64,000 nt of DNA from a virus, in IMG/VR virus record IMGVR_UViG_3300030430_004661, positions 1-64,000 of that record. One strand, given 5' to 3'. The position numbers and the translations under genes were made by a program. Positions 1,875 to 24,925 of the stretch are shown here, in pieces. A model generated the notes under the pieces. That model searched no databases and was not told where the DNA came from. It saw nothing but the letters and a program-made list of their open reading frames with translations. Numbering within the stretch: position 1 is the first letter of the stretch; each line of letters opens with the position of its first letter.

Positions 1875-3875
1875 ATGAAAATAAAAATTATCAAAGAATC
1901 TAATGGTGCTTTTGACGCTGCTATGCAGCACATACACAGCGATCCCGGAATTACTGATCCTGATGTTGCCACAGCACCGATGACCAGTCAACAACAAAAC
2001 CAACAACCTTCTTGGGCAGCTGGATACAAGCACAAGCTGGGACAAAAAACCGATGGACAAATTGCAAGAGAAAAAGCCGAGGAACTGGGGTATACAATTG
2101 TTAAACCTTTGGGTCAAGGTTTTTTTGGCAAAGTCTACTTGGTTAAAAAAGACAACGTAGAGTATGCATTTAAAATGGTAAAAAAATCACCTATAAGAGA
2201 AGTTGAAAACTATAAAACAGTTTCTGAGGCGAGAAAACAGAGCGCCATTGTTGCCAAACATTTTCCAGAGGTTTTCTATGCCGAAGTAGACAAAGATGAT
2301 CGGGGTTACATAATTATGGAATTGTTAACCGACAAAGGCCCCAAGTCCCTTATTATACCAGAATTGGTTGGAGATGGCGAAATGCTAGTGCCTATAAACA
2401 GGGACAATCCGTATAAAAACCTTAAAAATAGAATGTACATGTATCTAACAAATGAAAACATTCGAGAGGGTGTTTTATTTGGAATGTTTAGTTTATTTAT
2501 GGCACCTCCTCACATTAAAATACCAATAGAAAAAGCACTGAAGTATAGATTTGGTAAAGATTTTGGCGTTGAGTATCTAAAAACAAAATCAATAGCAGGA
2601 GATCAAAAACTAATAGATGACTTAGAGAGGAGAGCTAGAAAGGTAATCTCACCGGATGAAGAGGAATTTATTTTTGATAGAAGCGGGGCCCTGAAGGATG
2701 AATTTGTAATCAACCCCGGTGCTCTTACATTTTTAATTATAGCACTAGAAACCGTCAGAGATGCAGACCCATTTAAGGGCACTCCCCAGAGTTGGTACAC
2801 CAGAACGCAAACTGCCGCTGTTGTAGAATTTATGACCTTCTACAGACAAGGGGCGCCTGTTCCTTTTAATTATGGTGACATGGGAACCAAGGGCGGAGCA
2901 CCGGAACAAGTTGCCAGCGTCTATAAAGACGCCATGTCAATCAGAGAAGCAATGAAAGAATTAGCAAATATTACTGGTCTTTTTGCAAAAGATGTACATG
3001 GTGGTAATATTATGATAAGACCAAGCACGCAAGACTTTGTGGTTGTTGACCTTGGATTATTTAAGCCTCGACCAAAACAAGGATATTACGAAGGTAAACG
3101 TTGGTCTAAGAAACAACGAAACAAAAGAAAAAAAGGATGTGCAAACCCGAAAGGCTTCACAATGAAACAATTTTGTAAAAACCAGAGAACAAAATCTAAA
3201 AAAGGTGAAAGAACAAATGAAGGAATTGAGCGTAACATAGTGACTGTAAGAATTACTAAGGACCTTGACGAACGTAGAAAAAAACGTAACAAAGGTGGCA
3301 AATGTCAAAAAGGCTATAAAACACATCCGACTCGCAAAACAAAAAAAATGTTTGGTAGAAGGTACCGCAACTGTGTTAAAGCAGAAGGTCAAATAGATGA
3401 AAGAGAATTGACTCCCGCTGAATATGAAAAGAAAAAAGAAATAGCAAAGGGTATAAAAAAAAGTAACCCATCAATGCCAGATGACAAAAGATATGCAACA
3501 GCAACAAAATTAGCAAAACAACAAGATCTTGATGAACGTAAAAAAAAGCGAGATCCCAAAAAGGGAACCGGTAAAAAACCAAAAGGCTCTGGTAGAAGAT
3601 TATATACGGACGAAGATCCAAGTGATACAGTGTCCGTAAGTTTTAAGTCTGTTTCGGCAATAAAGAAAACTTTAGCCAAACCTTCTTTCAAATCTAAGAG
3701 TCATAAACGACAGTCGCAAATAATTAATTTGATACACCAAAGATCCAGAGCAGCTTACAGAAATGCAAAAGACCCAAAGGTAAAAGCAAGATTAAAAAAG
3801 GCATTTAACTATGCCAAGAAGCGTAAAGAGGCTTCTAAAAAGAAAACTATTCGTATGAGGAAAAAGAAAAAATGA
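1875..3875 (+). CDS. Protein kinase-like protein with C-terminal basic modules (possible capsid cargo)
   Basis: 666 residues. Residues about 75-395 match a protein-kinase fold: glycine loop LGQGFFGKVY (79-88), Lys100 in AFKMV, hinge-like YIIMELL (145-151), catalytic loop KDVHGGN (Asp373 to Asn378) and DLG (392-394) in the place of DFG. Residues 400-666 are a chain of Lys/Arg-rich modules: KKGCANPKGF with paired cysteines, GKCQKGYKTH ending RRYRNC, a segment with NPSMPDDKRYATA, and GTGKKPKGSGRRLYTDEDP. The last recalls a domain (DUF5824, from memory) shared by marine phages and giant viruses. Modules begin after L-x-E or I-x-E at 464-466, 507-509 and 552-554, which fits T4-type prohead protease sites. 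The next gene overlaps by ATGA. Kinase residues look intact, so activity is plausible; targets are unknown. Confidence 0.7.
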   Translation: MKIKIIKESNGAFDAAMQHIHSDPGITDPDVATAPMTSQQQNQQPSWAAGYKHKLGQKTDGQIAREKAEELGYTIVKPLGQGFFGKVYLVKKDNVEYAFKMVKKSPIREVENYKTVSEARKQSAIVAKHFPEVFYAEVDKDDRGYIIMELLTDKGPKSLIIPELVGDGEMLVPINRDNPYKNLKNRMYMYLTNENIREGVLFGMFSLFMAPPHIKIPIEKALKYRFGKDFGVEYLKTKSIAGDQKLIDDLERRARKVISPDEEEFIFDRSGALKDEFVINPGALTFLIIALETVRDADPFKGTPQSWYTRTQTAAVVEFMTFYRQGAPVPFNYGDMGTKGGAPEQVASVYKDAMSIREAMKELANITGLFAKDVHGGNIMIRPSTQDFVVVDLGLFKPRPKQGYYEGKRWSKKQRNKRKKGCANPKGFTMKQFCKNQRTKSKKGERTNEGIERNIVTVRITKDLDERRKKRNKGGKCQKGYKTHPTRKTKKMFGRRYRNCVKAEGQIDERELTPAEYEKKKEIAKGIKKSNPSMPDDKRYATATKLAKQQDLDERKKKRDPKKGTGKKPKGSGRRLYTDEDPSDTVSVSFKSVSAIKKTLAKPSFKSKSHKRQSQIINLIHQRSRAAYRNAKDPKVKARLKKAFNYAKKRKEASKKKTIRMRKKKK

Positions 3876-4456
3876 ACGAAGAAGAGCTAGAAGAGAAAAA
3901 GAAGCGTCGTAAAAAACGTAAGAAAAAGCGTAAAGTCAAAAAGAAAAAAGGCAAACGTGACGCATGCTATTACAAAGTCAAAGCAAGATATAGTGTGTGG
4001 CCGTCTGCTTATGCTTCTGGTGCTCTCGTAAAATGTCGAAGAGTAGGTGCCAAGAATTGGGGTAACAAATCAAAAAAGAATGAGTCTTTAAATGAAGAGT
4101 TTAAGCCTCACATGATGTATGATCCAAAGACTGGTAAATCAGAAAAAGCAAATAAAAAAGAAGATCACGAAAGATTGGCTAAGCAAGGCTATACCCATGT
4201 TGATCCTCAAGAGCTAGAAAAAGTACTACGAGATGAGGGTGGAGCATCAGGTATGGACCCCTTTGTTAAGGCTGTTGGTAAAGGCATGGAAGATGAAATA
4301 GAAGATACTCTTGATGATATGCCAAACGTCGGACAACATACGGACAAAGACTACATCTTAGATGATGGAGAAGAAATAAACATACAAAAAGAACAAAAAT
4401 TGTTAACAAAAAAGATTAGAGTTAGAATCAAAAGAAAACTTGAGGAAGGAATATGA
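3872..4456 (+). CDS. Highly basic modular protein, possible internal head protein
   Basis: 194 residues, starting in an ATGA overlap with the kinase gene. MNEEELEE is followed by about 25 residues that are nearly all Lys or Arg. Next comes a module DACYYKVKARY...VWPSAYASGALVKCRR of a type I recall from many marine phage proteins of unknown function. LNE then precedes an acidic half (MMYDPKTGKSEK, EGGASGMDPFVKAVG, DILDDGEEI). The GGASGM segment resembles EGGAAGMEAL in the protein at 7800, so modules are shared between neighbours. The C-terminus KKIRVRIKRKLEE resembles the N-terminus of the kinase. The basic stretch suggests DNA or head-interior binding; no catalytic motif is visible. Confidence 0.6.
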   Translation: MNEEELEEKKKRRKKRKKKRKVKKKKGKRDACYYKVKARYSVWPSAYASGALVKCRRVGAKNWGNKSKKNESLNEEFKPHMMYDPKTGKSEKANKKEDHERLAKQGYTHVDPQELEKVLRDEGGASGMDPFVKAVGKGMEDEIEDTLDDMPNVGQHTDKDYILDDGEEINIQKEQKLLTKKIRVRIKRKLEEGI

Positions 4457-5403
4457 CCGGATCTATTATAGAGCAGGATGTTCTAAACGAAGAAAAAAAA
4501 GAAAAAAAGTGCAAGAGATGTGGCACTATGAACGCATGTGGTAATCAAAAATGCACCAACTGTGGTCATGACAAATTTGGTCCATGTAACGAATCAATCG
4601 ACGAAAAAAAGAAGCGTCGAAAGAAACGAAAAGTAAAGCGCAAGAAAAGAAAGGGCGGCAAACGCGATGGCAAAGGAGCCAGTAGTAAAGGCTATTCCCT
4701 TCGTGACTGGTTTAAAGGTGGGGGTTGGGTTCAGACTGGTGGAAAGTATGACGGTAAGCCTTGCGCAAAGCAACCCGGTCAAAAAACCAAACCTTATTGT
4801 AGAGATCCTGACGATAGAGCCAAGATGAGTAAGAAAGAAAGAGACAAAAGAGCTCGTAAAAAACGTAAAGAAGATCCAAATCCAAACCGAAGAGGTAAGG
4901 CCAAAAACGTAAGGCAGAAAAAGAGTAAAAGGAAAAATGAAAGTATGTTGACACCAGATTTTATGATGACATTAATTGAGCAGGAGTTAAACTCTATGCT
5001 TAATAGTGGAGAACTTTATGAACATTTTCTGATTGAAAACGGCAGTTATGAAGATGGATCTCCGCTAGAAGAGGATTTTGAATTTTTTGAAGTCCTGAGT
5101 GAGGATGAAATCGAAGAAGCAGTTTACAGAGGTAAAACTGTTAAACTAAATAAACCAACAAGAGGTGATGTAAAGAAATTTAAAGTCTACGTTAATTCTG
5201 GACGTAAAGACAAGAAAGGTCGAGTAATAGCCAAAAAAGTAAACTTTGGACACGGAGGTTCAAGTGCAAGAAAAAAAGGCGAAAAGACCATGAGAATCAG
5301 AAAAAATAATCCAAAAGCAAGGAGAAATTTTAGAAAAAGGCACAACTGTGCCAATCCGGGACCTAAAACCAAAGCTAGGTACTGGTCATGTAAAAAGTGG
5401 TAA
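4453..5403 (+). CDS. Zinc-ribbon and basic-module protein, possible internal head protein
   Basis: 316 residues, overlapping the previous gene by ATGA. A zinc-ribbon-like start (CKRCG, CTNCG, further Cys at 25-46) follows VLNEEK. IDE at 49-51 then precedes another run of Lys/Arg. A module SLRDWFKGGGWVQTGG...CAKQPG...KPYCRDPDDRAKMS resembles a family I recall as DUF5872. A middle acidic helical part contains the segment ELNSMLNSGELYEHF. The C-terminus is a third recurrent phage module, RHNCANPGPKTKARYWSCKKW-like, with conserved Cys and Trp. These modules occur singly or fused in marine phage genomes and none has a known function. Together with the two upstream genes it forms a tight three-gene set. 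Confidence 0.6.
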   Translation: MTGSIIEQDVLNEEKKEKKCKRCGTMNACGNQKCTNCGHDKFGPCNESIDEKKKRRKKRKVKRKKRKGGKRDGKGASSKGYSLRDWFKGGGWVQTGGKYDGKPCAKQPGQKTKPYCRDPDDRAKMSKKERDKRARKKRKEDPNPNRRGKAKNVRQKKSKRKNESMLTPDFMMTLIEQELNSMLNSGELYEHFLIENGSYEDGSPLEEDFEFFEVLSEDEIEEAVYRGKTVKLNKPTRGDVKKFKVYVNSGRKDKKGRVIAKKVNFGHGGSSARKKGEKTMRIRKNNPKARRNFRKRHNCANPGPKTKARYWSCKKW

Positions 5404-5419
5404 GGAGGTATCATGACAA

Positions 5420-5662
5420 ATGGAAATTTTATTGGAATCTTTGGCTCAATATGGGCCTTTGGGCCTGTGGACTGCTTCGCTTCTGTATGCGAACTATCAA
5501 ACTAGAAAGGAAGCTAAAGAAGAGGAACGTATACTACAGGATAAAATCATAGATAAACTAGATAAGCAAAATACTATGTTAGAAAAAACACTTGATAAGC
5601 TGGATCTAGGTTTAGATAAGATGAAAGAACAGAGAATAAGAGAGCTAAACACTAGAACTTAA
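5420..5662 (+). CDS. BhlA/holin-like small protein with one membrane segment and coiled coil
   Basis: 80 residues. The N-terminal 25 residues (LAQYGPLGLWTASLLYANYQ) are hydrophobic and can span a membrane once. From residue 30 the protein is a charged helix with heptad-like Leu/Ile spacing (IIDKLDKQ, LEKTLDKLDLGLDKMK), expected to form a coiled coil. This layout matches BhlA-type holin-like proteins. A strong AAGGAGG (5402-5408) lies 11 bases upstream. The in-frame TGA at 5414 excludes an earlier start. A lysis or membrane-anchoring role is likely but unproven, and no endolysin gene lies beside it. Confidence 0.55.
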   Translation: MEILLESLAQYGPLGLWTASLLYANYQTRKEAKEEERILQDKIIDKLDKQNTMLEKTLDKLDLGLDKMKEQRIRELNTRT

Positions 5663-5713
5663 TAGTTTATGAGTTATAATATAATAAAAAAGAAAATTAA
5701 TAAAAGAAAAAGC

Positions 5714-5742
5714 TTGACATGTTACCCTCCAGATGTTATAAT
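5714..5742 (+). promoter_or_regulatory. Sigma-70-type promoter for the 5804 unit
   Basis: TTGACA (5714-5719), a 17-base spacer and TATAAT (5737-5742), preceded by TGT as in an extended -10. Both hexamers match the bacterial consensus exactly. The gap 5663-5803 is the longest in the window; the rest of it is A/T-rich with no further gene. ATGTTATA (5733-5740) is repeated inverted as TATAACAT (5783-5790). Confidence 0.8.
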
Positions 5743-5803
5743 TAAGTTGTAAGTAAAATGACAATTAACAACATACTAACAATATAACATATTTTGAGAG
5801 GAT

Positions 5804-7039
5804 ATGCAAGTGAAAGATAAAAAAAAGATTATAAGTTTTGACTTTGACAATACAGTAGCCATTACGTATGTCGAATTTGAAAAAGATTCAGATCCTGAGC
5901 CTGTATTTTTAGAGTACAATAACAAAATTGTGTCTCTTATGAAAGAGCATATTGATAATGGTGATGATGTTTACATCGTAACATCCAGATACCGACACCT
6001 AGAGCAGGAATACCCTGAGCAAGATGTACCTTATCACCTTAATAAGCTTGGTTTGACAGAATATTTCTGGCCCGACAGGGTATTTTACATGAATGGTGGT
6101 CTAAAAGATGAAAAATTAAGCGAGCTCAACGTTGATTTACACTATGATGACTCCATGGAAGAACTTTTAGCATGCAGATCAGCCGGTATACCATGTAAAA
6201 ACCCCTTAGACTTCTACAAAGATGCGAATGTAGTCGGTAAATCAGTAATATATGACGACTCAGATAAAATTTTGATCCTGAAAAGAGGTGATAAAGGCAC
6301 AAAATGGGACTTACCCGGTGGCCACATCAAAGAAATAGAACTTCAAAGAGGTCAATTCGGTCTCCAGAAGGGTTTAGAAAGGGAAGTTGCTGAAGAAACT
6401 GGTATAATTTTACCAAACGAAGAGTTTTACTACGACTTTAGTAATACTTTTGAGGACAAAACAAACCAAGTTCATATTTATTTAACAAAGATGGACACTG
6501 TTGAACCAGATGTTGACCTTGAAGTGCAAGAATTTAGAGAAAATATTGATTACAAGTGGGTACCAATAGACAAAATGGATCAATATATGGCCAATGGTAC
6601 CACACTTTTTGTTGAAGTTATGGAAAAATTAAGAAAAGATGGCAAAAAAATGACTAATGAAGGCAAATATCTTGCTGCGCAACACAAAAACTGGCGAAAA
6701 ATGAAGACTAAGTTGATTGGAACCGGTAAAAACAAGCATAAGGGCGGCGGAAAGGGTCACAAAGAGACAGATATGGGCCCATCTAAGAACGTTTTGGCGT
6801 TATATGAAGAAGATGATAAAAAAAAAGCAAAAATTAAGGTAAAAATCGTAAAAAAAGACGAAAATCTTGATGAAAAGAAGAAAAAACGTCGAAAAAAACG
6901 AAAAAAGAGCAAAAAATCAAGACATCAGCCCAAAGCTGGGCGCTCAAGTAAGTATTTTGGCTCAAGTTACTTTGATTATGGCCTATTTGACGGAGAATCG
7001 GGTGATTCTGGCGGTGGAGACGGCGGTGGAGGTGAATAA
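5804..7039 (+). CDS. HAD phosphatase-NUDIX hydrolase fusion with basic C-terminal module
   Basis: 411 residues. Residues 8-135 form a HAD-like domain: DFDNT (Asp13, Asp15), IVTSRYRHLE near 58-67 and YDDS near 114-117. Residues 143-270 are a NUDIX domain. WDLPGGHIKEIE gives the first half of the box and REVAEETGI (193-201) the second, but six extra residues lie between them compared with the usual Gx5Ex7REUxEExGU. The last 130 residues hold KNWRKMKTKLIGTGKNKHKGGGKG, then LDE (355-357) directly before a run of Lys/Arg, and a Gly/Ser/Tyr-rich end. Fusion suggests two-step processing of a phosphorylated nucleotide-like compound. The tail shares the junction pattern of the three preceding genes. 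It has its own sigma-70-type promoter, and RBS GAGAGG lies upstream. Confidence 0.75.
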   Translation: MQVKDKKKIISFDFDNTVAITYVEFEKDSDPEPVFLEYNNKIVSLMKEHIDNGDDVYIVTSRYRHLEQEYPEQDVPYHLNKLGLTEYFWPDRVFYMNGGLKDEKLSELNVDLHYDDSMEELLACRSAGIPCKNPLDFYKDANVVGKSVIYDDSDKILILKRGDKGTKWDLPGGHIKEIELQRGQFGLQKGLEREVAEETGIILPNEEFYYDFSNTFEDKTNQVHIYLTKMDTVEPDVDLEVQEFRENIDYKWVPIDKMDQYMANGTTLFVEVMEKLRKDGKKMTNEGKYLAAQHKNWRKMKTKLIGTGKNKHKGGGKGHKETDMGPSKNVLALYEEDDKKKAKIKVKIVKKDENLDEKKKKRRKKRKKSKKSRHQPKAGRSSKYFGSSYFDYGLFDGESGDSGGGDGGGGE

Positions 7040-7177
7040 ATGGATAATTTTGTTGAAAAATGCACTTATTTTGCTGTTTTATTCATATTTTTCATGATTT
7101 TTTGTTCGATTATTGGCTTTGAGAGCACAATCATAACAATTTTACTACTTATATTAGCAAACATGAGGTACAAATAA
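7040..7177 (+). CDS. Small two-helix membrane protein
   Basis: 45 residues, beginning MDNFVEKCTYFAVLF and ending ILANMRYK. Two hydrophobic stretches (about 9-25 and 29-41) can each cross a membrane, separated by GFES. The ATG follows the previous stop codon with no gap, GGAGG lies about 8 bases upstream inside the preceding Gly codons, and its TAA overlaps the next ATG (TAATG). This tight coupling makes it a real gene despite its size. The size and topology fit a holin, a lysis regulator or an immunity peptide; nothing decides between these. Confidence 0.65.
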   Translation: MDNFVEKCTYFAVLFIFFMIFCSIIGFESTIITILLLILANMRYK

Positions 7178-7551
7178 TGAAGTTTTCAAAGCAGAGAATG
7201 GTAGAAATTATCAAAGAAGAAATGGAAAAAATGGACCACTCTCATCATAAATTGCATGATAAAGAGGGAAAAATGGCAAAAAGTCAACTTTATCAGCTCT
7301 CAAGGTACTCTGCAATGCTACATGATGCCCTAGAAGAAGACGATCAGTTAGAAGCTTGGGTTCAATCTAAGATAACAAAGGCTATGGACTACATTTCAAA
7401 AGTAAAACACTACCTAGAGTATGAAATGGACCTAGAATATACAGAACCAAAGGTGGATCTCCACAAATCAACAGAATCAGGGTGCGGACCAAGTCCTCAA
7501 ATGGAACCAAAGACTTACGTCTATGAAGTTGCTGATGATCTAGAGGAATGA
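7177..7551 (+). CDS. Conserved small phage protein, unknown function
   Basis: 124 residues, mostly helical and charged. After MKFSKQRMVEIIKEEMEKM comes a block MAKSQLYQLSRYSAMLHDAL...LEAWVQSKITKAMDYISKVKHYLEYE. I recall this block as a recurrent element of marine phage proteins, often fused to basic modules like those at 1875-5403. The C-terminal 35 residues are acidic and proline-containing. No catalytic residues stand out. It starts in a TAATG overlap with the small membrane protein and ends in an ATGA overlap, so it belongs to the same operon. Confidence 0.6.
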   Translation: MKFSKQRMVEIIKEEMEKMDHSHHKLHDKEGKMAKSQLYQLSRYSAMLHDALEEDDQLEAWVQSKITKAMDYISKVKHYLEYEMDLEYTEPKVDLHKSTESGCGPSPQMEPKTYVYEVADDLEE

Positions 7552-7796
7552 AGACAAGGATCATGTCACTAGGTGAGATATTTTTAAAAAATTTTAATGT
7601 TGGTGACTATGTGACATGGAGAGTACTTTCCGGTAATATAGAGGTACACTATTGTCAATACCAAGGAATCATTACAGAGATAGTTCATTATGACGATGAC
7701 ATAAGACCTGTGTACTATGCTAAAATTTTAGAAAACAAATCTGCTCAAATCTTTTGCGTTGTACTATCTTGTTTAACAAAAATAGAGACTAATTAG
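7548..7796 (+). CDS. Small beta-rich protein, unknown function
   Basis: 82 residues. Pattern FNVGDYVTWRVL...YQGIITEIV...VYYAKILE alternates short strands and turns as in small SH3-like barrels. The start at 7548 overlaps the previous stop (ATGA) but has AGAGGA immediately against it. An in-frame ATG at 7563 has AAGGA only two bases away. Either start gives the same domain. No family recognised. Confidence 0.5.
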   Translation: MKTRIMSLGEIFLKNFNVGDYVTWRVLSGNIEVHYCQYQGIITEIVHYDDDIRPVYYAKILENKSAQIFCVVLSCLTKIETN

Positions 7797-7799
7797 TAT

Positions 7800-9149
7800 A
7801 TGCATTGTAAAATAAATAACAAGTCAAATTACAATATAAAAGAGTTTGAACCTCTAGTACAAGATATGTACAAGTTTGGTGATAAAAGGTTTGGTTTTAA
7901 AAAACCACCAGTAATCAATTTTGTCTCTGACACAAACAATCATCATTTGCTTGGTAAAACAGGCCAATATGATCCTAGCACTATGGAGATAACAATCTTC
8001 ACAGACAACAGGCATCCAAAAGATATGATGAGATCGATTGCACATGAACTTATCCACCATGTGCAGAATTTGAACAATCAATTTGACATGCATACTCAAA
8101 CCTATGCTGGCTATGCACAAAAAGATCCTCATATGAGAAAAATGGAAGCTGATGCCTATTTAAGAGGAAACTTATTGTTTAGAGATTGGGAAGATGGATA
8201 CAAGTCTCGACACAAAGATATTTTTTACGAAAGGAGAATACACAAAATGTCTACAAAAAAATGGAAAAATAAAGAGCTTAACGGACTCTTGAATGAACGT
8301 TGGGGATTCTCCATGGATCTCGGAATGCTCAATGAGCAAAAGATGCCAATGAAAAAAGATACTGATGATGTCGATGAAGATGGTGACACAGATGAGATGG
8401 TTCCCGCCTTCCTAGACAAAGGTGATGTTAAAAAGCCAAAGAAATCTGGAAACCCACAGCCTCCACAACTTGCAAAAGCACAAGGTAAAAAAGCAGATGA
8501 TAACGACGAAGAAGAAAGTGATAAAAAAGAAAACAACGACGATGAAACGTCAGACCTTGAAGCAGAAATCTTAGGTGTACTAGAAGCAGAAGGTGGAGCC
8601 GCTGGTATGGAAGCACTAGAGAAAGAACTCGATGCATCAAAAGATCAGATCCGTAGAGAAATCGAAAAATCAGACAAGATGGAAAAACACCGAGACGGGG
8701 ACATTATTGATATAACCGGTCTTGAGGATCACGATGATAAAGATGATGACGAAGAAGAAGAAAATGAAAACCTTTACGAAAGCTGGGGTTTCTCGATGAA
8801 CCTTAATAAATTGAACGAGTCAAAAGATCTTGAAGAAATGCGTATTGTAGCCACTGGCGAAGATAAAGGTGCTGGTATGAAAATGAGTGACATGAAACCC
8901 ATGGGAACCATGGATATGGCTGCTCAACAGCACCCTGACAACTTGATGGCTCTTTTGCAAGACGTTGTTGGCTCTCAAGCACCACAGATTGATATTGAAG
9001 AGTTGGCTGCAAAGATTCGTGCTGCAATGGGAATGGAACAACCCTCAGCCGATATGCCTCCTGCTGAAATGCCACCCATGATGGAAAAGAAAATCAGAAA
9101 AGCAGCAAAAGAAGCCTTGCGTCGTATGGCAGCACAAAAGAGAAAGTAA
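7800..9149 (+). CDS. Zinc metalloprotease-like (HExxH) protein with repeated scaffold-like modules
   Basis: 449 residues. Residues 15-130 form a zincin-like domain: IAHELIHHVQN gives HExxH (His82, Glu83, His86) and EADAY (Glu116) is a candidate third zinc ligand. Behind it are two copies of a motif, LLNERWGFSMDLGMLNE (about 168-184) and LYESWGFSMNLNKLNE (about 328-343), separated by acidic segments. These include DDVDEDGDTDE, which resembles a calcium loop, and EGGAAGMEAL. The C-terminus is Met/Pro-rich and then basic. The copies are bounded by L-x-E tripeptides, as in the capsid-like modules at 1875-7039. It may be a head-packaged protease or a scaffold-associated protein with a vestigial protease. 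No good ribosome site precedes 7800. Confidence 0.6.
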   Translation: MHCKINNKSNYNIKEFEPLVQDMYKFGDKRFGFKKPPVINFVSDTNNHHLLGKTGQYDPSTMEITIFTDNRHPKDMMRSIAHELIHHVQNLNNQFDMHTQTYAGYAQKDPHMRKMEADAYLRGNLLFRDWEDGYKSRHKDIFYERRIHKMSTKKWKNKELNGLLNERWGFSMDLGMLNEQKMPMKKDTDDVDEDGDTDEMVPAFLDKGDVKKPKKSGNPQPPQLAKAQGKKADDNDEEESDKKENNDDETSDLEAEILGVLEAEGGAAGMEALEKELDASKDQIRREIEKSDKMEKHRDGDIIDITGLEDHDDKDDDEEEENENLYESWGFSMNLNKLNESKDLEEMRIVATGEDKGAGMKMSDMKPMGTMDMAAQQHPDNLMALLQDVVGSQAPQIDIEELAAKIRAAMGMEQPSADMPPAEMPPMMEKKIRKAAKEALRRMAAQKRK

Positions 9150-11750: not shown

Positions 11751-14700
11751 ATGAATAGAAGATTGATCGGGGCTAGTGTATTGAAGCACCCCATTGTCAA
11801 GAGGCTGTTAGAGTCTCGCATGTTTACCACCAGCGAAGTTATAAGGATAGTTGCTGAAGAGCTTTCTGCCGAAGAGGTAAACGCTTTTTTAAATGCAGCA
11901 AAAGAAGATCCCAAAAAAGGTGCCACAAAAGCCTACAGAGATTTAGCAAAAAAATATCATCCTGATAGAAATAAAGACGACCCAGAAGCAGAGGTTGCAT
12001 TTAAACAAGCAACTAATTTGAACAACATTATTAGCGGTAAAGACCCTAGCATGCTAAAAGATGAATTGACTGTAAAAGCACTTAAAGCCGCTGGATACTC
12101 TGATCAACAAATCCAGTCTTTTCAAGGATCTCAAAAAATAGATTTACAAGCAGAGCCGGGTAAAGAAACAGAAGATAAGCCCGCAGCAGGACAAGAAGAC
12201 ATTGATGCAACAAAAGAAGAAGTCATATCTGCTAAAAAATTCCAAGAACAGTTAAAATCTGTCTACGATGCTTTCGAAGCAGTATTAAAAAAGTACGCCG
12301 ACAATGCTGAGGGACTTTATTCAATAGAGGCTGTTAAGGAGTTGGTTCCTGTTTTAAAAGAAAACATGTTGACCGAGCAAGATGAAGATATTGAAAAGCT
12401 CATCACGGATGACGCAACAGAATCTATCAAGAGAATAGCAAAAGCACTGAACGATCTGAAAGCAGAAATAAATAAAGAAGTCCAAGAGATCATGAAAGCC
12501 ACACAGGAAGAAACTGCTGTTGCCGTAACAGAAGAGAGAGGCTCTGGTGCTTTTTTGAAACCAAAAGAATTTAAAGATTGGTATAAGAAAAACATAAAAG
12601 ATAAGTTTCCCGGAGCCAACCTAGGTAAAATATTGCAAGTTCTTAAGAAAGAACTAGCAGATGTTGGAATAGGGTACGGAACACTTTTAAAAGAGTACTT
12701 AGATAAAAATGATTTAATGAAAGCATTAGTAGATGCTGGTGCTATACCTGATAACCAAATAGCGCCACAGTTGACTGGTCAAATTGTAATTTTCTTAAAA
12801 TCTATGGCTCAAAAACACAAATGGCCAGATCCTAAAAAACCAGAAGAAGCAACTCCTGAACCTGCCCCTCTAACCGTTCAACAAAAGTCTTTTCCACTTG
12901 CTGTCCTCATGAAAGGTGAGTTGACAACGCAAGAGCATGGGCAACTTGTTAAGGCCACAAAAATATACGGAGATCTATACAAAAGAATACAGCGTTGGGT
13001 TAAAATTTATGGTTTGCTTGCTAGGTTTATTAGTAGTAGTACAAAGAAATTAACAGGACAAGAAGATCCTCCACAGCAAAAATTAATCGCTCAGGTGCAA
13101 CAACTACAGTTGCCTAAATTACCAGACCCTCCACCTCCTGATCCCGATCCTGATCCAACTCCAGAGCCCGATCCTCAGCCCGAAGAAGACGAAGAAGAAG
13201 AGGAAGACGAAGGTATATTTATTCCTGTGCAAGAGTTCAATAAACTGTTTGATGCCTTGGAGCCAAACTATGAAATGTTTGAAAATAGATTTCTTAAGAC
13301 ACCATTCCTAGGAACAGCTGCAAAAATCTTTAACGGCCTGTATGACGGGCTAAAACAGTTTGACAATGCTGCTCAACAAGCAGGGCAAGCAAACCTAACG
13401 ACAGCAGATATTGCTGATGAACAATCACCAGCAACAGATAGACAACAAGCACCAGCAAAAAGAGATGACCTTTATGAACAAGACACTGGTCTTGGAGAAA
13501 ATATTAGACCGCAACTTATGGAAATATTAAAAGAGTTGAGGCCTCAAGTTAAAGAAGTTGTTGATCTAATCGATAGATATTTTGAAACTGTCAAATCACA
13601 ACCAACAGGTGAGGATGATGAAAGATCTACAACCATTGGTGGTGGGGTTATAGAAGAAAAAATAACCACAATAATGGATTCAATACAGAATAATTTAGGT
13701 GAACTTAACGAGCTTCTATCAAGACTCGGTGCTAAAAAAGGTGATTTCTATTCTTTGAAAGAACAAGAAGAGGAAGCAGGAGCACCAGATACACCAGAGT
13801 CATTTACCGATAAAGGCAAGGGTAAGAGAAAACGTAGAAACAAAGTTCCAAGGGCTGAGCGAATAAAAATGGTCAGAAATGTTTATAGGCAAGTTGTTTC
13901 TAACTTAGTTGAGTTTATCACCGCTGTTGAAGGTCTAAGAGGCGTAGACTCAGTGGACTACACAAAGCAAATGAGGCCTTTAATTGAGAACTCCCTAGAC
14001 GAACTTGATACCATAAGAAACTTTTTTCCGACAATGGCTCCTTTTGGCAAGGCTAAGAACGCCAAAGAAAAAAGAGAAGTAAGAAAACAAGCAAAAAATC
14101 TTGGTCGAAAACTTAATGATATCGTTGACCGTCTCAATAGAATGGTCAGACAGAAAGATCCTGATAGAAAAGAAAAACAACAGTCTCGCGGAGGAGTGCC
14201 CCAACAAGGCGATCAGACAGTTCCAGATCAAAAAGTTGACAATTTACAAGAGCAACAAAACTTTGATAAAAGCACCTTGAAAGAATTAATTGAGTTGACA
14301 TTAACATCTTCTAAGATGATTCAAGATGCATTCGGAGCAGACTCAAAGATAGGAAAGGTCGTCGCTCAAAAGAGAGAAATCAAAGATACAGATGCTGCCC
14401 CTACGGCTGCTGGTGAAAAGGCAATTAAAGCTGGAAAAGCCACAACACCAGAGGATCCTGTGGCCGGTGAAGAAGATGAATCCAAAGCAGCGTTCAACGA
14501 AGTTGATAGTCCTCAAGAGGCCTTAACAGCATACAGAGATTTAAAATCAGTTATAAAAACCAGAATGGGAATTATAAAAGATCTTGCTCCTAACAGCTCG
14601 TGGAAAAATGATCCAATGTATACATACATATTTTATGTTTTTCTCAAAAATGATTTTGAAAGTGTGGTCAAAGAACAGGATGAACCTAAGATAGGGTCAC

Positions 14701-15098
14701 CAACTGGGCCCGGACTTGATAAATTAGGCTTAACAGTTGACAAGGTTAAGTTTTTGAAAAACGTTGTGAAAGCAAGGGCACTAAAGAAAGACGATGATGG
14801 AAACCCAGATAATCCTGATCTATACTTTTTCTACACCGGAGTAGCAAAAATAATATCAGACCCCAAAAGAAGAAGAATATTCATGGAGAAAGTGATAGAA
14901 CCTTTAGACGATAGAACAAAGAAACAACAAAGAAAATTCAACCTCAATGCACAAGACTTGAGAACATTTATTGTGAAAGCGGTAGAGATGAGAGATGCTG
15001 CGGAAAGAGATCCAACTGCTGGAACTGCCAATGAAAACTTAGAAAGAAAAATTATTAACAAACTCAAACCAATTATTGAAAGGATGTTACATGGCTAA
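11751..15098 (+). CDS. Giant protein with partial DnaJ domain, probable virion or scaffold-related protein
   Basis: 1115 residues. Residues 60-95 hold the central part of a J-domain (AYRDLAKKYHPDRNKDDPEAEVAFKQ) with HPD at 70-72, suited to stimulating an Hsp70 ATPase. The first helix of a J-domain is replaced by unrelated sequence. The remainder is long, mostly helical and charged. A Pro/Asp/Glu-rich spacer near 452-487 (PPPPDPDPDPTPEPDP then acidic) separates two halves, and a Lys/Arg-rich segment sits near 688-700. Similar short helical blocks recur (LRPQVKEVVDLIDRYF, LDELDTIRNFF). No catalytic motif beyond HPD. The candidate late motif upstream suggests a structural or assembly role with host DnaK. 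Confidence 0.55.
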   Translation: MNRRLIGASVLKHPIVKRLLESRMFTTSEVIRIVAEELSAEEVNAFLNAAKEDPKKGATKAYRDLAKKYHPDRNKDDPEAEVAFKQATNLNNIISGKDPSMLKDELTVKALKAAGYSDQQIQSFQGSQKIDLQAEPGKETEDKPAAGQEDIDATKEEVISAKKFQEQLKSVYDAFEAVLKKYADNAEGLYSIEAVKELVPVLKENMLTEQDEDIEKLITDDATESIKRIAKALNDLKAEINKEVQEIMKATQEETAVAVTEERGSGAFLKPKEFKDWYKKNIKDKFPGANLGKILQVLKKELADVGIGYGTLLKEYLDKNDLMKALVDAGAIPDNQIAPQLTGQIVIFLKSMAQKHKWPDPKKPEEATPEPAPLTVQQKSFPLAVLMKGELTTQEHGQLVKATKIYGDLYKRIQRWVKIYGLLARFISSSTKKLTGQEDPPQQKLIAQVQQLQLPKLPDPPPPDPDPDPTPEPDPQPEEDEEEEEDEGIFIPVQEFNKLFDALEPNYEMFENRFLKTPFLGTAAKIFNGLYDGLKQFDNAAQQAGQANLTTADIADEQSPATDRQQAPAKRDDLYEQDTGLGENIRPQLMEILKELRPQVKEVVDLIDRYFETVKSQPTGEDDERSTTIGGGVIEEKITTIMDSIQNNLGELNELLSRLGAKKGDFYSLKEQEEEAGAPDTPESFTDKGKGKRKRRNKVPRAERIKMVRNVYRQVVSNLVEFITAVEGLRGVDSVDYTKQMRPLIENSLDELDTIRNFFPTMAPFGKAKNAKEKREVRKQAKNLGRKLNDIVDRLNRMVRQKDPDRKEKQQSRGGVPQQGDQTVPDQKVDNLQEQQNFDKSTLKELIELTLTSSKMIQDAFGADSKIGKVVAQKREIKDTDAAPTAAGEKAIKAGKATTPEDPVAGEEDESKAAFNEVDSPQEALTAYRDLKSVIKTRMGIIKDLAPNSSWKNDPMYTYIFYVFLKNDFESVVKEQDEPKIGSPTGPGLDKLGLTVDKVKFLKNVVKARALKKDDDGNPDNPDLYFFYTGVAKIISDPKRRRIFMEKVIEPLDDRTKKQQRKFNLNAQDLRTFIVKAVEMRDAAERDPTAGTANENLERKIINKLKPIIERMLHG

Positions 15099-18024: not shown

Positions 18025-19284
18025 TTGTCAAAGAAAAAAATATTAACACTATCTGATCATCCTCTCTCGCCGTCCGGTGTCGGAACCCAAACAAGATATA
18101 TTTGTGAGGCTCTTCTTGATACCGGGCGGTATTCTATTATTAGTTTGGGAGGCGCGATCAAACATAAGGATTACAGACCAGTTCAGCTAGAACAATATGG
18201 TGATGACTGGAGGATAATCCCTATAGATGGATACGGCACTCAAGAAATGATCCGATCTATTTTAAAAACCGAAAAACCAGATGTCATTTGGTTCATGACC
18301 GATCCACGATTCTGGGGCTGGCTATGGGAGATTGAAAATGAAATTAGGCCACTTTGCCCAATGGTGTATTACCATGTATGGGACAACTACCCTTATCCTT
18401 TTTACAACAGGAATGCTTATTTGTCTAACGACCACATTGTCACTATTTCTAAAGTTACTGACGATATAGTAAGAAATGTAGCACCAGAAGTAAAATGTAC
18501 ATATTTACCACATGCAGTAGATTTAAACTTCTTTAAACCGATGACCGATGAAGAAATTAAATCAATTAGAGATACAACGTTACCAGAACAAGATCGTGAT
18601 AAAGTAATTTTCTTCTGGAACAATAGAAATGCACGTCGAAAACAATCTGGTACGCTCATATGGTGGTTCAAAGAGTGGTTAGATAAAAAAGATTTGCACG
18701 ACAAAGCACAGCTCATAATGCACACTGAACCTAAAGACCCTCATGGACAGGACCTAGAGCACATAATTAATCATCTTGGGTTGGACCAACGCCAAGTCCT
18801 CCTATCAACTCAGAAAGTACCACCTGAGCATCTAGCATCAATGTATAATTTTGTTGATTGTACAATTAATGTTTCAGATGCTGAGGGATTTGGTTTGGCC
18901 ACTCTTGAATCGCTATCCTGCGGCACGCCTATTATCGCCACGATGACAGGAGGTCTTCAGGAGCAAATCACAAACGGTTCTGATTGGTACGGCGTTGGTC
19001 TCTTCCCTACTTCAAAATCAGTCATTGGATCTCAAGATGTTCCGTATATCTATGAAGATAGAATAGATAAAGCGCAGTTTCATTCTGCACTGACCAAGAT
19101 CTATTCCATGGGTCATGCAGCCCGAAGAGAAATGGGATTGCAAGGTAGAGATCATGTGATGAAAAACTACAATTTTATCGACTTCAAATCTAAGTGGATC
19201 GATCTTATGGACAGCGTGCTAGAAAGTGGATCTCATGAAACACGAACAGGATATAACGGAATCAGATTTAAGGAGGTCGCATGA
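18025..19284 (+). CDS. Glycosyltransferase, GT4-like
   Basis: 419 residues, starting at TTG with GAGG about seven bases upstream. N-terminal Rossmann domain with SPSGVGTQTRYICEAL, a nucleotide-sugar GT-B hallmark. C-terminal domain with VSDAEGFGLATLESLSCGTPIIAT, the E-x7-E element of family 4 retaining transferases. It transfers a sugar from a nucleotide donor; donor and acceptor cannot be read. First gene of the thirteen-gene cassette, directly behind a consensus promoter, and overlaps the next by ATGA. Confidence 0.8.
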   Translation: MSKKKILTLSDHPLSPSGVGTQTRYICEALLDTGRYSIISLGGAIKHKDYRPVQLEQYGDDWRIIPIDGYGTQEMIRSILKTEKPDVIWFMTDPRFWGWLWEIENEIRPLCPMVYYHVWDNYPYPFYNRNAYLSNDHIVTISKVTDDIVRNVAPEVKCTYLPHAVDLNFFKPMTDEEIKSIRDTTLPEQDRDKVIFFWNNRNARRKQSGTLIWWFKEWLDKKDLHDKAQLIMHTEPKDPHGQDLEHIINHLGLDQRQVLLSTQKVPPEHLASMYNFVDCTINVSDAEGFGLATLESLSCGTPIIATMTGGLQEQITNGSDWYGVGLFPTSKSVIGSQDVPYIYEDRIDKAQFHSALTKIYSMGHAARREMGLQGRDHVMKNYNFIDFKSKWIDLMDSVLESGSHETRTGYNGIRFKEVA

Positions 19285-20501
19285 AAACCAACATATTTGT
19301 AAAAGGCCCTGTATTGTCACAAAGTGGCTATGGCGAACAAGCTCGCTTTGCATTACGTGCATTGCGAAGCAGAGAAGATCTATTTGATATATACATACTA
19401 CCTATCAACTGGGGAAAAACAGGCTGGATATGGGAAAATAGTGAATTTAGATCTTGGATGGATGAAAGAATAGCAAAAACACAAATTGCAATAAATAACA
19501 AATCTCTAAAAGCAGACGTATCGTTACAAATAACTATACCAAATGAATTTGAAAAAATATGCCCGGTAAACATTGGGTATACCGCTGGTATAGAAGCAAC
19601 CAAATGCTCACCGCAATGGTTACCTAAAGGTAACGAGATGGACAAAATTATTGTTGTTTCTAGCCATGCTAAAAACAGTTATAAAAATACAGTAGCAGAG
19701 GCAATAAACAATGACACTGGTGAAAAGTTTGAGTACAAGCTGAACACAGATATTAAAGTTGTTGGAGAATGCACACCAAGACACGAACCAGAAGCAATCG
19801 AAGGTTTTGAGTTGGATTATGACAAGAATTTTCTGATGGTATCCCAGCTCGGACCACGAAAAAACCTTGAAAACTCAATATGTTGGTTTGTAGAAGAGTT
19901 TATCGATAAAAAAGTCGGATTGGTATTGAAGACTAATTTCAAGAACAATTCAATATCAGACTTTAGCACGATCTCAAATCACCTCTCTACTTTACTAGAG
20001 AAATATAAAGATAGAAAATGTAAGGTCTACTTGCTTCACGGAGATCTCAAACCATCACAGATGACTTGGCTATACCAGCATAAAAATATTAACGCTCTTA
20101 TTAATGCATCTCACGGTGAAGGTTTTGGCTTGCCATTGTTTGAAGCAGCAAGAGAAGGTATGCCCGTTGTTACGCTTGGCTGGTCTGGACAGTTAGACTT
20201 TTTACACCATGATGGCGATGACTATTTCCAATCAGTTGATTACACCTTACAGCCAATCCAACCACAAGCAGTGTGGCCGGGAGTTTTAGAAAAAGAGGCT
20301 ATGTGGGCATTTGCCGATCAAGGCAGCTACAAGATGACCTTAAGAAAAACACTTAGAGACTATAGAAAAGTTAAACAAAAAGCACAGAAGTTAAAGACTA
20401 TCATTGATCAAAAATTTAGCGAAGAAAAACTATACGCTGATTTCATAGATGCCTTACAGATTGCACAACCTGAAGAAGAAACACAGGTGGTCATACTGTA
20501 A
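19281..20501 (+). CDS. Glycosyltransferase, GT4-like
   Basis: 406 residues. The start VKGPVLSQSGYGEQARFAL parallels the glycine-rich loop of the preceding gene product. The C-terminal domain has NASHGEGFGLPLFEAAREGMPVVTLGWSGQLDFL, again the E-x7-E donor-binding region. Middle LMVSQLGPRKNLENSICWFVEEF is the usual start of the second domain. The two transferases are related but clearly diverged, so they probably add different sugars. Starts in an ATGA overlap and ends in a TAATG overlap. Confidence 0.8.
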   Translation: MKTNIFVKGPVLSQSGYGEQARFALRALRSREDLFDIYILPINWGKTGWIWENSEFRSWMDERIAKTQIAINNKSLKADVSLQITIPNEFEKICPVNIGYTAGIEATKCSPQWLPKGNEMDKIIVVSSHAKNSYKNTVAEAINNDTGEKFEYKLNTDIKVVGECTPRHEPEAIEGFELDYDKNFLMVSQLGPRKNLENSICWFVEEFIDKKVGLVLKTNFKNNSISDFSTISNHLSTLLEKYKDRKCKVYLLHGDLKPSQMTWLYQHKNINALINASHGEGFGLPLFEAAREGMPVVTLGWSGQLDFLHHDGDDYFQSVDYTLQPIQPQAVWPGVLEKEAMWAFADQGSYKMTLRKTLRDYRKVKQKAQKLKTIIDQKFSEEKLYADFIDALQIAQPEEETQVVIL

Positions 20502-22471
20502 TGAAAGTTATTTTTTCTAGTCAATTCAGAGACAGTAGTGGTTATGCATCCGCAGCAAGATCTTATCTAAAGTCAATAGACACAGTTATAGAAAACTATG
20601 ATTATGACTTTAAGATACTATCAATTTCTGTGGAAGACCACAGTGCTGTTTCTGATTACTATGAACAATTAATTTCAAAGTACGAGATAGATTTAGATTC
20701 AATTGATGAGTATATCAAAGAAGATTATCTACTCATATGGCACCAACCAGCAGGAATGGTGATGTATGGAGACTCTAACAAAAGTAATGATCCTGAATGG
20801 ATAGCGTTCAAAAAGCTGTTGGATAACTCAACCAAGAATGTGAACATGACAGTTTGGGAGTCTGATAAGGTTCCAGATATGTGGTCTGCAATACACAAGA
20901 AGTATAAAACAACCTCAGTCATAGTCCCTTGTCAACAAAACAAAGACATTTTTGAAACATCAGGTATCTCCGCTCACCTGCTACCTCACGTGATTGAAGA
21001 TCCAATGAAAAATCCCAAAGAGATAAATGGGTTTCCTATAAATCTAGACGACATGTTTACTGTGTTTTCTATGTCACAGTGGATTAATCGAAAGGGTTAT
21101 GATGCTTTAGTAAAGGCATTCTCTATGGAGTTTGACAACGTTCCAGACGCTATCATGATAATAAAAACTTACGTGACAGCAATGAACACAAAGCAGTTTC
21201 CGTTCAACAAGCAAGCAGAACATGTGCAAAGTGAGATCGTCGCAGTCAAGAGGACAGTTTTAAAACACGGTCGACCATCTAATGCTAAGATAGCAGCGAT
21301 CTGCAATGTTCTTCCATATGAAAACATATCGTGGCTATATTCAAAGTCTGATGTCTTTGCGTTAGCGACAAGAGGTGAGGGCTTCGGTTTGACCATATCG
21401 GAAGCTATCATGCATGAGAAACCTGTTGTGGTGTCATCTGCTGGCGGACATTTGGATTATATAAATCCAGATGACGCCTTTTTGTTTAATGGCTACAAAC
21501 ATCCATACATAGGGGATCCAACTTATGATTACGATATGAATTGGTTTGAGCCCGACATACTTGATATAAGAAAAAAATTAAGAACATGTTATAATCTATG
21601 GAAGTCGAATAGAGAAAAACTTGCTCAAATGGGCAAAAATCTGAAGCAACATATCTTGTCTAATGGATACGACTATGAATCAATTGGAAACAAGTTTTTT
21701 TCCATAATATCAAAAGAAATCAACTATAGAAGCGATAATTTGAAAGATATGATAAGGTCTTTTTCATCTGATAGAAAAAAGTTAGACCTTTTGAAAGACA
21801 AATACAAAGATCAAGACTGTTACATCTTAACATGTGGCCCATCTCTTAGCAACTATTCTGAGGAGTTTTTAAACGAAGCACTTTCAGATAAACTAGTGTT
21901 CGCAGTTAAGCAAGCATACAATCAGGCACCAGATATTGTTGATTTTCACTTTTTTAACTCAAACAACTTTGAAGTATATAACTATAAGGAAGATAGGCCC
22001 ATAGTGTTTGCAAGCTCGGCTGAGAGTGAGATAGCCATGATCTATCACATTTGGTCCAACAACCAAGAGTATGACATTTTTAATTTCATACCAGATGATA
22101 GAGACATGTCCAAGTCGATTTGCAAAAGTTTGAACTTTGAAAAGCATACATATGAAAACACAATCGAAAGACCATGGGGGCCCGGTATTATGACTGAAAT
22201 GGTGTTCTACTTAGCGGTACACATGGGCGTAAAGAACATATACACCATAGGTTGGGACTTAGAAAAGCCCGGATCCACAAAGTCAAACCATTTTTACAAG
22301 GATAGATCAGTAATAAGACCTGCTGATGATATGCCTAAAGATGAAATAAATAATAACATAAACATGTCGAAGCACTTAAACGAGTGGTTAAAAACAAAAG
22401 GAATTAATTTATATGTAGCAAATGAAGGGTCTTATGTACACAATTCAATACCTAGGAGAATATTAAAATGA
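20501..22471 (+). CDS. Two-domain protein: GT4-like glycosyltransferase plus G-P-S (GT42/DUF115-like) domain
   Basis: 656 residues. Residues 1-400 are a GT-B transferase (RDSSGYASAARSYL near 8; ATRGEGFGLTISEAIMHEKPVVVSSAGGHLDYI near 288). Residues 420-656 are a second domain: CYILTCGPSLSNYSEEFL, FAVKQAYNQAP, and TEMVFYLAVHMGVKNIYTIGWDLE. The G-P-S loop at the start and the A-x-x-G-x-x-x-I-x-x-x-G-x-D strand near the end resemble DUF115/MptE-like and GT42 sialyltransferase proteins. The domain assignment is by motif recall, not a search. Fusion would couple two successive sugar transfers. It overlaps neuB by ATGA. Confidence 0.65.
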   Translation: MKVIFSSQFRDSSGYASAARSYLKSIDTVIENYDYDFKILSISVEDHSAVSDYYEQLISKYEIDLDSIDEYIKEDYLLIWHQPAGMVMYGDSNKSNDPEWIAFKKLLDNSTKNVNMTVWESDKVPDMWSAIHKKYKTTSVIVPCQQNKDIFETSGISAHLLPHVIEDPMKNPKEINGFPINLDDMFTVFSMSQWINRKGYDALVKAFSMEFDNVPDAIMIIKTYVTAMNTKQFPFNKQAEHVQSEIVAVKRTVLKHGRPSNAKIAAICNVLPYENISWLYSKSDVFALATRGEGFGLTISEAIMHEKPVVVSSAGGHLDYINPDDAFLFNGYKHPYIGDPTYDYDMNWFEPDILDIRKKLRTCYNLWKSNREKLAQMGKNLKQHILSNGYDYESIGNKFFSIISKEINYRSDNLKDMIRSFSSDRKKLDLLKDKYKDQDCYILTCGPSLSNYSEEFLNEALSDKLVFAVKQAYNQAPDIVDFHFFNSNNFEVYNYKEDRPIVFASSAESEIAMIYHIWSNNQEYDIFNFIPDDRDMSKSICKSLNFEKHTYENTIERPWGPGIMTEMVFYLAVHMGVKNIYTIGWDLEKPGSTKSNHFYKDRSVIRPADDMPKDEINNNINMSKHLNEWLKTKGINLYVANEGSYVHNSIPRRILK

Positions 22472-23292
22472 AAACATACGTTATAGCGGAAATAGGAATA
22501 AACCATAATGGTTCGTTAGACATCGCCAAGAAGCTGATTGATGTAGCGGCTGTCTCAGGATGTGATGCAGTAAAGTTCCAGAAAAGAAATCCCGATGTCT
22601 GTGTACCTGAGCACCAAAAATCAGTCATGCGTGAAACTCCGTGGGGTACCATGACCTACTTGGACTATAAATATAAGATGGAGTTCGGCAAAGAAGAGTA
22701 TGATGAGATCGATAGATACTGTAAACAGAAGGGTATCGAATGGTCTGCTTCCCCATGGGATCTCGACAGCTTGAAGTTTTTGATGAATTATGATTTACCA
22801 TGGCTTAAAATACCATCTGCCATGATAACCAACGAGGAATTAATGACTGCGTGTGCTGCAACTGGTAAAAAAGTTATCTTTTCCACTGGTATGTCAACTT
22901 ATGACGAGATAGACCAAGCAGTAGAATGGCTCAATGGCTCTGATACTTTAATGCTTCACTGTAATTCTAGTTACCCGGCGCCGTTAGAAGATTTAAATCT
23001 AAAATGCATACAGACTCTCAAGAAAAGATATGGCTGTGAAGTAGGCTATAGTGGTCATGAGTTTAGGCTTGGCACATCTGTAGCAGCAATATATTTAGGT
23101 GCAACTTGTATCGAGAGACATATAACTTTAGATAGAACAATGTGGGGTTCTGACCACCTATCTTCAGTCGAACCTCAAGGGTTGATCAAGATGGTGAGGG
23201 GTATTAGAGAGCTGGAAGTAGCACTTGGAGACGGTGTGAAAAGGGTTACAAGCGGCGAGCTTGCACCAAGAAAGAAACTTAGAGGTTACTAG
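22468..23292 (+). CDS. neuB: NeuB-like nonulosonic (sialic) acid synthase lacking the C-terminal SAF domain
   Basis: 274 residues. AEIGINHNGS (8-16), KFQKR (36-40), FSTGMSTYDEID (139-149), HCNSSYPAP, GYSGHE (193-197) and ERHITLDRTMWGSDHLSS are the conserved NeuB blocks; the His and acidic residues of the metal and PEP site are present. NeuB condenses PEP with N-acetylmannosamine or a related aminohexose to give a nine-carbon nonulosonate. Usual length is about 340-350 residues with an antifreeze-like SAF domain that covers the active site of the partner subunit. Here the protein stops at PRKKLRGY, before that domain. The next gene starts at once (taGTG) and encodes an oxygenase, so no SAF fragment follows. 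Confidence 0.85.
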   Translation: MKTYVIAEIGINHNGSLDIAKKLIDVAAVSGCDAVKFQKRNPDVCVPEHQKSVMRETPWGTMTYLDYKYKMEFGKEEYDEIDRYCKQKGIEWSASPWDLDSLKFLMNYDLPWLKIPSAMITNEELMTACAATGKKVIFSTGMSTYDEIDQAVEWLNGSDTLMLHCNSSYPAPLEDLNLKCIQTLKKRYGCEVGYSGHEFRLGTSVAAIYLGATCIERHITLDRTMWGSDHLSSVEPQGLIKMVRGIRELEVALGDGVKRVTSGELAPRKKLRGY

Positions 23293-24131: not shown

Positions 24132-24925
24132 ACAAATATAGAAAAAACATAGATCACGGTGGGTGGTTTAGTTTTAACGCAACGCAAGAAGAATGGAAGT
24201 CAAACTACGCTGAAAAAATGTTAGATTACTTTTTTACCTCGTCGATTATAGAGAGGAGCTTTGGCGGATACACAATAACAGATGAACTCTTGATTACAAA
24301 TAACCTAAACTTTTCTGGTGTCAAAGAGAGGAGTGTTCTTGTCATAGGAGCAGGTCCATCTTCATCCTTGTTAACGCAAGAGTTACTTGATTCCTATGAC
24401 TATGTTTTTACATGCAATCACTTTTTTAAAAACGATTTTTTGAATGGCACCAAAGTCAACCTAGTCTTGATTGGCGACGAAGTCAGTCTGAGATCACCAC
24501 ACTTTCTAAAATATATCGAGAAACACTCTCCAATTATAGGATTTGAACACTCCGCCAGAAGAACCATGCTTGAAGTCTTAGATTTTAAAAGATCTTATCC
24601 TAGAAGCTTTATTTATCTGACTAGGTACTTTTCAAGGTTGGGATATGTTGCTAGAGCATGTGTTCTTGCAAGGTGTATGGGTGCCTCAAAAGTTGATTTT
24701 GTGGGTATGGATGGTTTCAAGAAGAGGGTCCATCTTTTTCAAAAAGGCAAAAAACCACCATCCTTTAACGATCCAGACAAGTTTAGAAAACAAGCAAAAA
24801 TATTTTATGAATATATGTTGAATGATTTACGTATAACTAAGGATAATTTTAATAACCTTGGAGAAAATCACGAATCCAGCATATACACCGGAATCATGAA
24901 TGAGGTAAAAAATGAAACAAATTGA
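24128..24925 (+). CDS. G-P-S-loop transferase-like protein (GT42/DUF115-like)
   Basis: 265 residues. SVLVIGAGPSSSLLTQELLDSYDYVFTCNHFFKND resembles the N-terminal loop of bacterial GT42 sialyltransferases (A-G-N-G-P-S...D-x-F-x-C-N-x-F). Later RLGYVARACVLARCMGASKVDFVGMDGF fits the matching helix-strand near their active site. It sits between a nonulosonate synthase and a CMP-sugar-synthetase-like gene, which supports a CMP-nonulosonate transferase. A DUF115/MptE-like role remains possible. The last bases overlap the next gene by 14. Confidence 0.55.
   Translation: MNKYRKNIDHGGWFSFNATQEEWKSNYAEKMLDYFFTSSIIERSFGGYTITDELLITNNLNFSGVKERSVLVIGAGPSSSLLTQELLDSYDYVFTCNHFFKNDFLNGTKVNLVLIGDEVSLRSPHFLKYIEKHSPIIGFEHSARRTMLEVLDFKRSYPRSFIYLTRYFSRLGYVARACVLARCMGASKVDFVGMDGFKKRVHLFQKGKKPPSFNDPDKFRKQAKIFYEYMLNDLRITKDNFNNLGENHESSIYTGIMNEVKNETN

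Follow-up and report, generated by a model that had tools for sequence, protein, structure and literature searches.

Why would a marine phage encode enzymes that continue, in one reading frame, into strings of small basic modules set apart by Leu/Ile-x-Glu motifs, (L/I)-x-E? The question is raised by positions 1-64000 (herein the window) of IMG/VR virus record IMGVR_UViG_3300030430_004661, a linear record of 74,511 bases whose readable gp25/gp6-like baseplate genes, PhoH and gp46/47-like genes indicate a marine myovirus. Five genes, named here by their first positions (1875-3875, 3872-4456, 4453-5403, 5804-7039 and 7800-9149; like their modules and junctions and gene 7177 below, on the + strand), exist as a preliminary description of the sequence had them. 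We consider it likely that the cluster encodes modular internal head proteins, small and mostly basic modules linked by cutting sites of a T4 gp21-type prohead protease. The precursors would enter the prohead core, the protease would cut them at the junctions, and the basic beads would remain with the packaged DNA and accompany it into the host. On balance, our best explanation of the whole extends this to the enzymes fused to the strings (a kinase, a HAD-NUDIX protein and possibly a zincin), which would be packaged, cut free in the head and delivered. The sequences themselves show the modules, the junctions, the shuffling of modules at junctions and a protease in the lineage; published mass spectrometry adds a homologous multi-module protein and related enzyme classes in cyanophage virions.

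Gene 1875 (1875..3875, 666 residues) encodes a protein-kinase-like enzyme that runs on into four basic modules in series. It matches Pfam Pkinase at E=2.5e-6, with a score (27.5) below the curated cut-off of 31.7; the kinase-like fold is further indicated by a G-loop, Lys, Glu, DxHxxN and DLG that are invariant across six orthologues, and by Foldseek matches of a medium-confidence structure model to kinases in the PDB (E~3e-5). The kinase domain covers residues ~73-396 (2091..3062, from Pfam and the orthologue alignment), and its boundary with the first module ('YYEGKRWSK') is not a canonical L-x-E. The string then comprises the basic module 'GCANPKGFTMKQFCKNQ..' (3138..3212; hidden Markov model (HMM) matches in 43 proteins of related phages), LDE at residues 464-466 (3264..3272) with a Lys/Arg run, the basic module 'KCQKGYKTHPTRKTKKMFGRRYRNCVK' (3300..3380; 47 HMM matches, with [LI]xE upstream in 26/31 nonredundant instances), IDE at residues 507-509 (3393..3401), the module 'EYEKKKEIAKGIKKSNPSMPDDKRYATATKLAKQ' (3420..3521, found by profile search), LDE at residues 552-554 (3528..3536) with a second Lys/Arg run, and the module 'DPKKGTGKKPKGSGRRLYTDEDPSDTV..' (3552..3674; 35 matches) with a basic C-terminus that extends to 3872.

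The next two genes consist of modules only, and both match the modules of phrog_727/T4-GC119. Gene 3872 (3872..4456; phrog_727, function unknown, E=6e-25) has LEE at residue 6, a basic run and the 'DACYYKVKARYSVWPSAYASG' module, then LNE at residue 73, the 'HMMYDPKTGK' module and a C-terminal LEE; the LEE-basic junction that opens it was absent from the preliminary list, and a PSAYASG module lies at 3956..4069. Gene 4453 (4453..5403; phrog_727 E=3.5e-26, phrog_7595 E=2.7e-8) has LNE at residue 11 before a zinc-ribbon-like part, IDE at residue 49 before a Lys/Arg run and the GYSLRDWFKGGGW module, and LSE/IEE before a KPTRGDV module (5119..5400) that starts immediately after I-E-E/A. Its DWFKGGGW module (4690..4887) shares 76% identity with gp160 of the cyanophage S-CREM2.

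To count such junctions, we defined the pattern as [LI]xE followed by at least five Lys/Arg within eight residues and took the expectation from shuffles. The five named proteins contain six (0.23 expected) and the remaining 22,148 residues of the record one (0.29 expected). All six lie in genes 1875, 3872, 4453 and 5804, and none in 7800. The sites first listed were all recovered, namely LDE before Lys/Arg runs (gene 1875, residues 464 and 552; gene 5804, residue 355), IDE and LNE in gene 4453, LNE in gene 3872 and LNE/LYE flanking both WGFSM repeats of gene 7800. The preliminary observation is thus confirmed, with basic modules directly after (L/I)-x-E in four of the five genes; the tail of gene 7800, which holds the flanked repeats, is acidic. 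Basic composition follows the same division, with Lys+Arg at 22-28% in 1875, 3872 and 4453 and a basic tail in 5804.

The same placement recurs well beyond the window. In four module families, the 30 residues that precede the module contain [LI]xE in 25/33, 37/54, 26/31 and 26/30 nonredundant instances, well above the shuffle means (10.7, 17.7, 13.2 and 15.0) and also above same-protein controls. Of 26 nonredundant KPTRGDV sequences, 21 directly adjoin [LIVMFY]xE; Glu occupies P1 in 21/26 and Leu/Ile occupies P3 in 18/26. In the FGRRYRNC family, too, entropy is lowest at P1 and P3, at the module edge. Such placement and P1/P3 constraint are the pattern expected of a T4 gp21-type protease site, and processing sites at cargo boundaries are a feature of T4-type internal head proteins. 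Virion proteins of S-CREM2 cannot be told apart from its other proteins by overall L-x-E density; it is position that counts, not number. A beta-strand motif, KIKIKIVKxLEE, precedes some junctions with modest enrichment (15 vs 3) and is kept as a lead.

Across some 200 viral contigs, profile searches identified 133 DWFKGGGW, 123 PSAYASG, 132 KPTRGDV, 47 FGRRYRNC, 43 FTMKQFC and 35 KKGTGKK domains. Among GenBank phages, the gene 4453 protein has matches in 299 records and the PSAYASG module in 366, most of them from cyanomyoviruses; the modules fall under no Pfam family. They are mobile families, present in hundreds of marine phages. Indeed, among kinase orthologues in relatives the sets and orders of modules vary, with insertions and losses falling at junctions, and the basic tail with a GGD region that the HAD-NUDIX protein carries in the window has a similar counterpart in L005 and L052, there attached to the kinase. 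The preliminary description had suggested looking for fusions to other enzymes, and one was found in Methylophilales phage Melnitz, where a nucleotidyltransferase is joined to the same modules after LDE.

Module distribution also bears on whether the junctions are cut at all. The modules might instead be nucleic-acid-binding proteins of the infected cell, with L-x-E a structural linker and nothing cleaved or packaged; their very basic composition would suit that role, and stand-alone modules do occur in phages that lack the protease. Two complete phages that are not T4-like, Kolga and CRP-902, encode a module and no phrog_207 (the T4-type head maturation protease), but their module proteins, which begin MAKYQG.. 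and MATYKG.., contain no L-x-E, whereas phrog_207 is encoded in every one of the nine T4-like genomes examined, which are complete or nearly so. Together with the P1/P3-specific constraint at module edges and the reported detection of gp160 in virions, this makes uncut linkers quite improbable. Several small contigs likewise carry a single module right at the N-terminus without L-x-E, as fragments on which absence of the protease is unprovable. A search for the module frame of CRP-901 returned an unrelated frame, which was dropped.

Cleavage would require the protease, which the preliminary description had proposed to seek elsewhere in the genome. We defined the lineage of this phage by relatives of its gp6-like protein, for which the full-length isolate matches are Flavobacterium phage immuto and Microcystis phage Mel-JY01 (about 31%). 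phrog_207 is encoded in 7/7 of these relatives of at least 100 kb, and in most of them the N-terminus of the protease contains ..LL[NTS]E. In G006 and G007, members of the family to which the record's last gene (73851-74405) belongs adjoin the cluster of terminase, portal and protease, so that the record probably ends just before the head genes and the protease would be expected a few kilobases past its end; a PF03420 search of the 74.5-kb record gave no match, but its controls were silent too and it is no evidence either way. Between the protease and the scaffold/capsid genes, L244 (5867-6082), L245 (6195-6401) and L248 (3801-4043) encode a very basic protein of 70-80 residues with a likeness, by eye, to ribosomal protein bS21. 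Sorting contigs by phage type with PF12236 and phrog_138 did not resolve the types.

Evidence from virions comes from the cyanophages. In Table 3 of PMC10665884, S-CREM2 gp160 is represented by seven unique peptides (13% coverage) in CsCl-purified virions; the S-CREM2 authors caution that non-structural proteins in the sample could be carry-over. Three window modules are present in gp160, following LSE, LEE and ISE junctions, together with a major-head-protein N-terminal segment (phrog_696, E=4.8e-10). In S-B68 and S-E7 its homologues bear the annotation 'T4-like structural protein, GC0119'. With junction sites at module edges, a protease in the lineage and a homologous multi-module protein in virions, the gp21-type cutting context first proposed for this locus is well supported. 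gp160 (L057 28342-29235) and the S-B68 homologue (L256 2279-2902) both open with a copied segment of the major capsid protein, the part after its processing site (..GFTGAAAPEGP.AGYDP).

Modules that enter the prohead need not stay there. They might be core or scaffold pieces that are packaged, cut and mostly expelled before DNA packaging, assisting assembly without delivery, with the enzymes lost or left in the producing cell. Propeptides and fragments released by prohead proteases would, as a rule, be expected to exit the head, and in relatives of the window phage proteins resembling a capsid-targeting sequence (CTS) adjoin the protease; yet gp160 peptides are still detectable in virions, and a scaffold would have little reason to be fused to catalytic domains whose active sites are conserved. 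We regard expulsion as unlikely. Our explanation is favored by gp160 in virions and by the Melnitz enzyme fusion; cytidylyltransferases of that kind are reported from cyanophage virions.

T4 internal protein IPIII opens with the CTS MKTYQEFIAE. In this ten-residue sequence, targeting depends on residues 4 and 7 and processing on residues 8 and 10, according to PMC9026906. We defined the T4 register as an aromatic residue at 4, Phe at 7, Leu/Ile at 8 and Glu at 10, a pattern that follows T4 mutagenesis but was written after the S-CREM2 sequences had been seen; it occurs in 5/219 S-CREM2 proteins, all five of them virion-detected (Fisher p=6.5e-4). The virion papers report kinases and cytidylyltransferases in virions of S-CREM2, S-CRM01 and S-SM1, among them the S-CRM01 kinase (MISFDQFLSE, L260) and the S-SM1 cytidylyltransferase (MKKFSAFLNE, L259 48256-49419), which match the register. 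That such enzymes begin with a T4-register CTS makes enzyme packaging credible. The consulted parts of these papers do not discuss the CTS on the enzymes, and a full-text search for capsid targeting sequences in cyanophages surfaced only a T4 review. Virion-detected enzymes of S-CREM2 also have the exact-register N-termini MKDFDSFLEE, VKRFDAFLTE and MKNFSSFLTE (L055 3837-5081 and 10579-12846; L057 24608-25468), and a Cas9-annotated virion protein has LRFASFMAE/A near its N-terminus. A similar N-terminus, MKNFKQFLSE, is found in S-SKS1 (L255 3078-3386), in a protein for which we know of no report from virions.

In the window, the second enzyme joined to a basic module is gene 5804 (5804..7039), a HAD-like domain (weakly matching phrog_415, E=5e-4) and a NUDIX hydrolase (E=1.1e-13) followed by LDE at residues 355-357 (6866..6874, before KKKKRRKKRKK; conserved in L003 and L051) and the basic Lys/Arg tail with its GGD region. 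Packaging and delivery of this protein and of the kinase are plausible, by analogy with the cyanophage enzymes, at what we would call an even prospect. It could also be that only the modules are head cargo: the kinase, joined to them because it lies upstream of the cassette, would be severed from them and work in the producing cell. L051 fits this, for it keeps the kinase without any modules and has lost a contiguous cassette (kinase tail, 3872 and 4453), as does the finding that the window enzymes carry no recognized CTS. Against it, the fusion is retained in all other recovered kinase orthologues, enzyme-module fusion recurs with HAD-NUDIX and with the Melnitz nucleotidyltransferase, and kinases are reported from related cyanophage virions; we accordingly give a purely modular cargo little credence. 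The original proposal that the phage packages enzymes by means of the modules is thus divided: enzymes are reported in related virions, but a role of the modules themselves as a targeting tag is unproven and is not supported, because the virion-detected cyanophage enzymes carry a separate N-terminal CTS and the L051 kinase has no modules.

The zincin-like gene 7800 (7800..9149; HELIHH at 8043-8060) is the weakest member of the set and fits the pattern least. It matches Pfam M76 at E=0.06, and its two L-x-E-flanked WGFSM repeats lie in an acidic tail; a scan for its relatives gave none, though syntenic orthologues surfaced in other loci. The case for packaging and delivery of the zincin is weaker than for the other two enzymes.

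Several observations weigh against our interpretation of the cluster as packaged, processed and delivered head proteins. Besides the kinase without modules in L051 and the expected exit of protease fragments, no prohead protease was recognized on the 74,511-base record, none of the five named genes (0/5) fits the T4-register CTS or has the MKIT-type N-terminus described below, gene 7800 is not basic (Lys+Arg 15%, Asp+Glu 21%), and the structure model of gene 4453 is uninformative (predicted local distance difference test, pLDDT, 48), the structure of the modules being not predictable.

A different N-terminus appears in gene 7177 (7177..7551), a small protein with a CTS-like start, MKFSKQRMVEIIKEEMEKM (7177-7224), and a C-terminal LEE. 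The sequence MKITKSQLKQIIKEELxxVLxE is common to 48 nonredundant proteins including this one (0.19 expected), and seems to be a candidate second capsid-targeting sequence, used by the window lineage and unlike that of T4. Its carriers are small, otherwise unrelated proteins (in L017, L040, L047, L145 and others) numbering at most six per contig.

Compared with known systems, the cluster resembles T4 IPI-III and Alt in its small basic cargo or packaged enzymes, its (L/I)-x-E sites and a gp21-family protease in the lineage; unlike the T4 proteins, which have one N-terminal CTS and one cargo each, the window proteins hold many modules in one chain, have junctions internally and at the C-terminus, include enzymes fused in line and lack a T4-register CTS. 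The cyanophage T4-GC119/phrog_727 proteins (S-CREM2 gp160, S-SM1 SSM1_115 and S-B68) share the modules and L-x-E junctions, and one of them is reported from virions, but they have no enzyme domain and gp160 adds its major-head-protein segment. The cyanophage virion kinases and cytidylyltransferases belong to the same broad enzyme classes, but carry the N-terminal T4-register CTS and no module string, and the kinase is weakly similar (E=0.002). The giant phages SPN3US and phiKZ likewise have many internal proteins that are cut by a prohead protease and thought to be ejected, but with long N-terminal propeptides and another protease and genome type.

Upstream of the kinase, two conserved genes (285-1845) encode proteins with likely lipoprotein signals (..WGC), one of them thioredoxin-like and the other with a VWA domain and an (EV)n repeat; the pair is retained in syntenic relatives that extend that far. 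Downstream, 11751-15098 encodes a highly charged protein of ~1,100 residues with a DnaJ domain (counterparts at L051 12953-16321 and L052 14233-17064), in which conservation with the same place in the closest relative is limited to the first ~41 residues; a scan for its relatives gave none. Between PhoH and the tail genes (18025-29658) lies a cluster resembling glycosyltransferases, sialic-acid synthase, dioxygenases and methyltransferases.

The published reports of enzymes in cyanophage virions, among them kinases and cytidylyltransferases, do not decide between cargo and contamination. The gp21-type sites at module edges, together with the T4-register CTSs on those enzymes, would supply a rule for predicting head cargo from sequence in hundreds of uncultured marine phages, one that is testable on existing mass-spectrometry data. 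We tentatively suggest that a widespread scheme may operate in marine T4-like phages, in which polyprotein beads and fused enzymes would be sorted into the head (in this lineage via MKITxxQLKxIIxEELxxVLxE), cut by a gp21-type protease and injected into the host.

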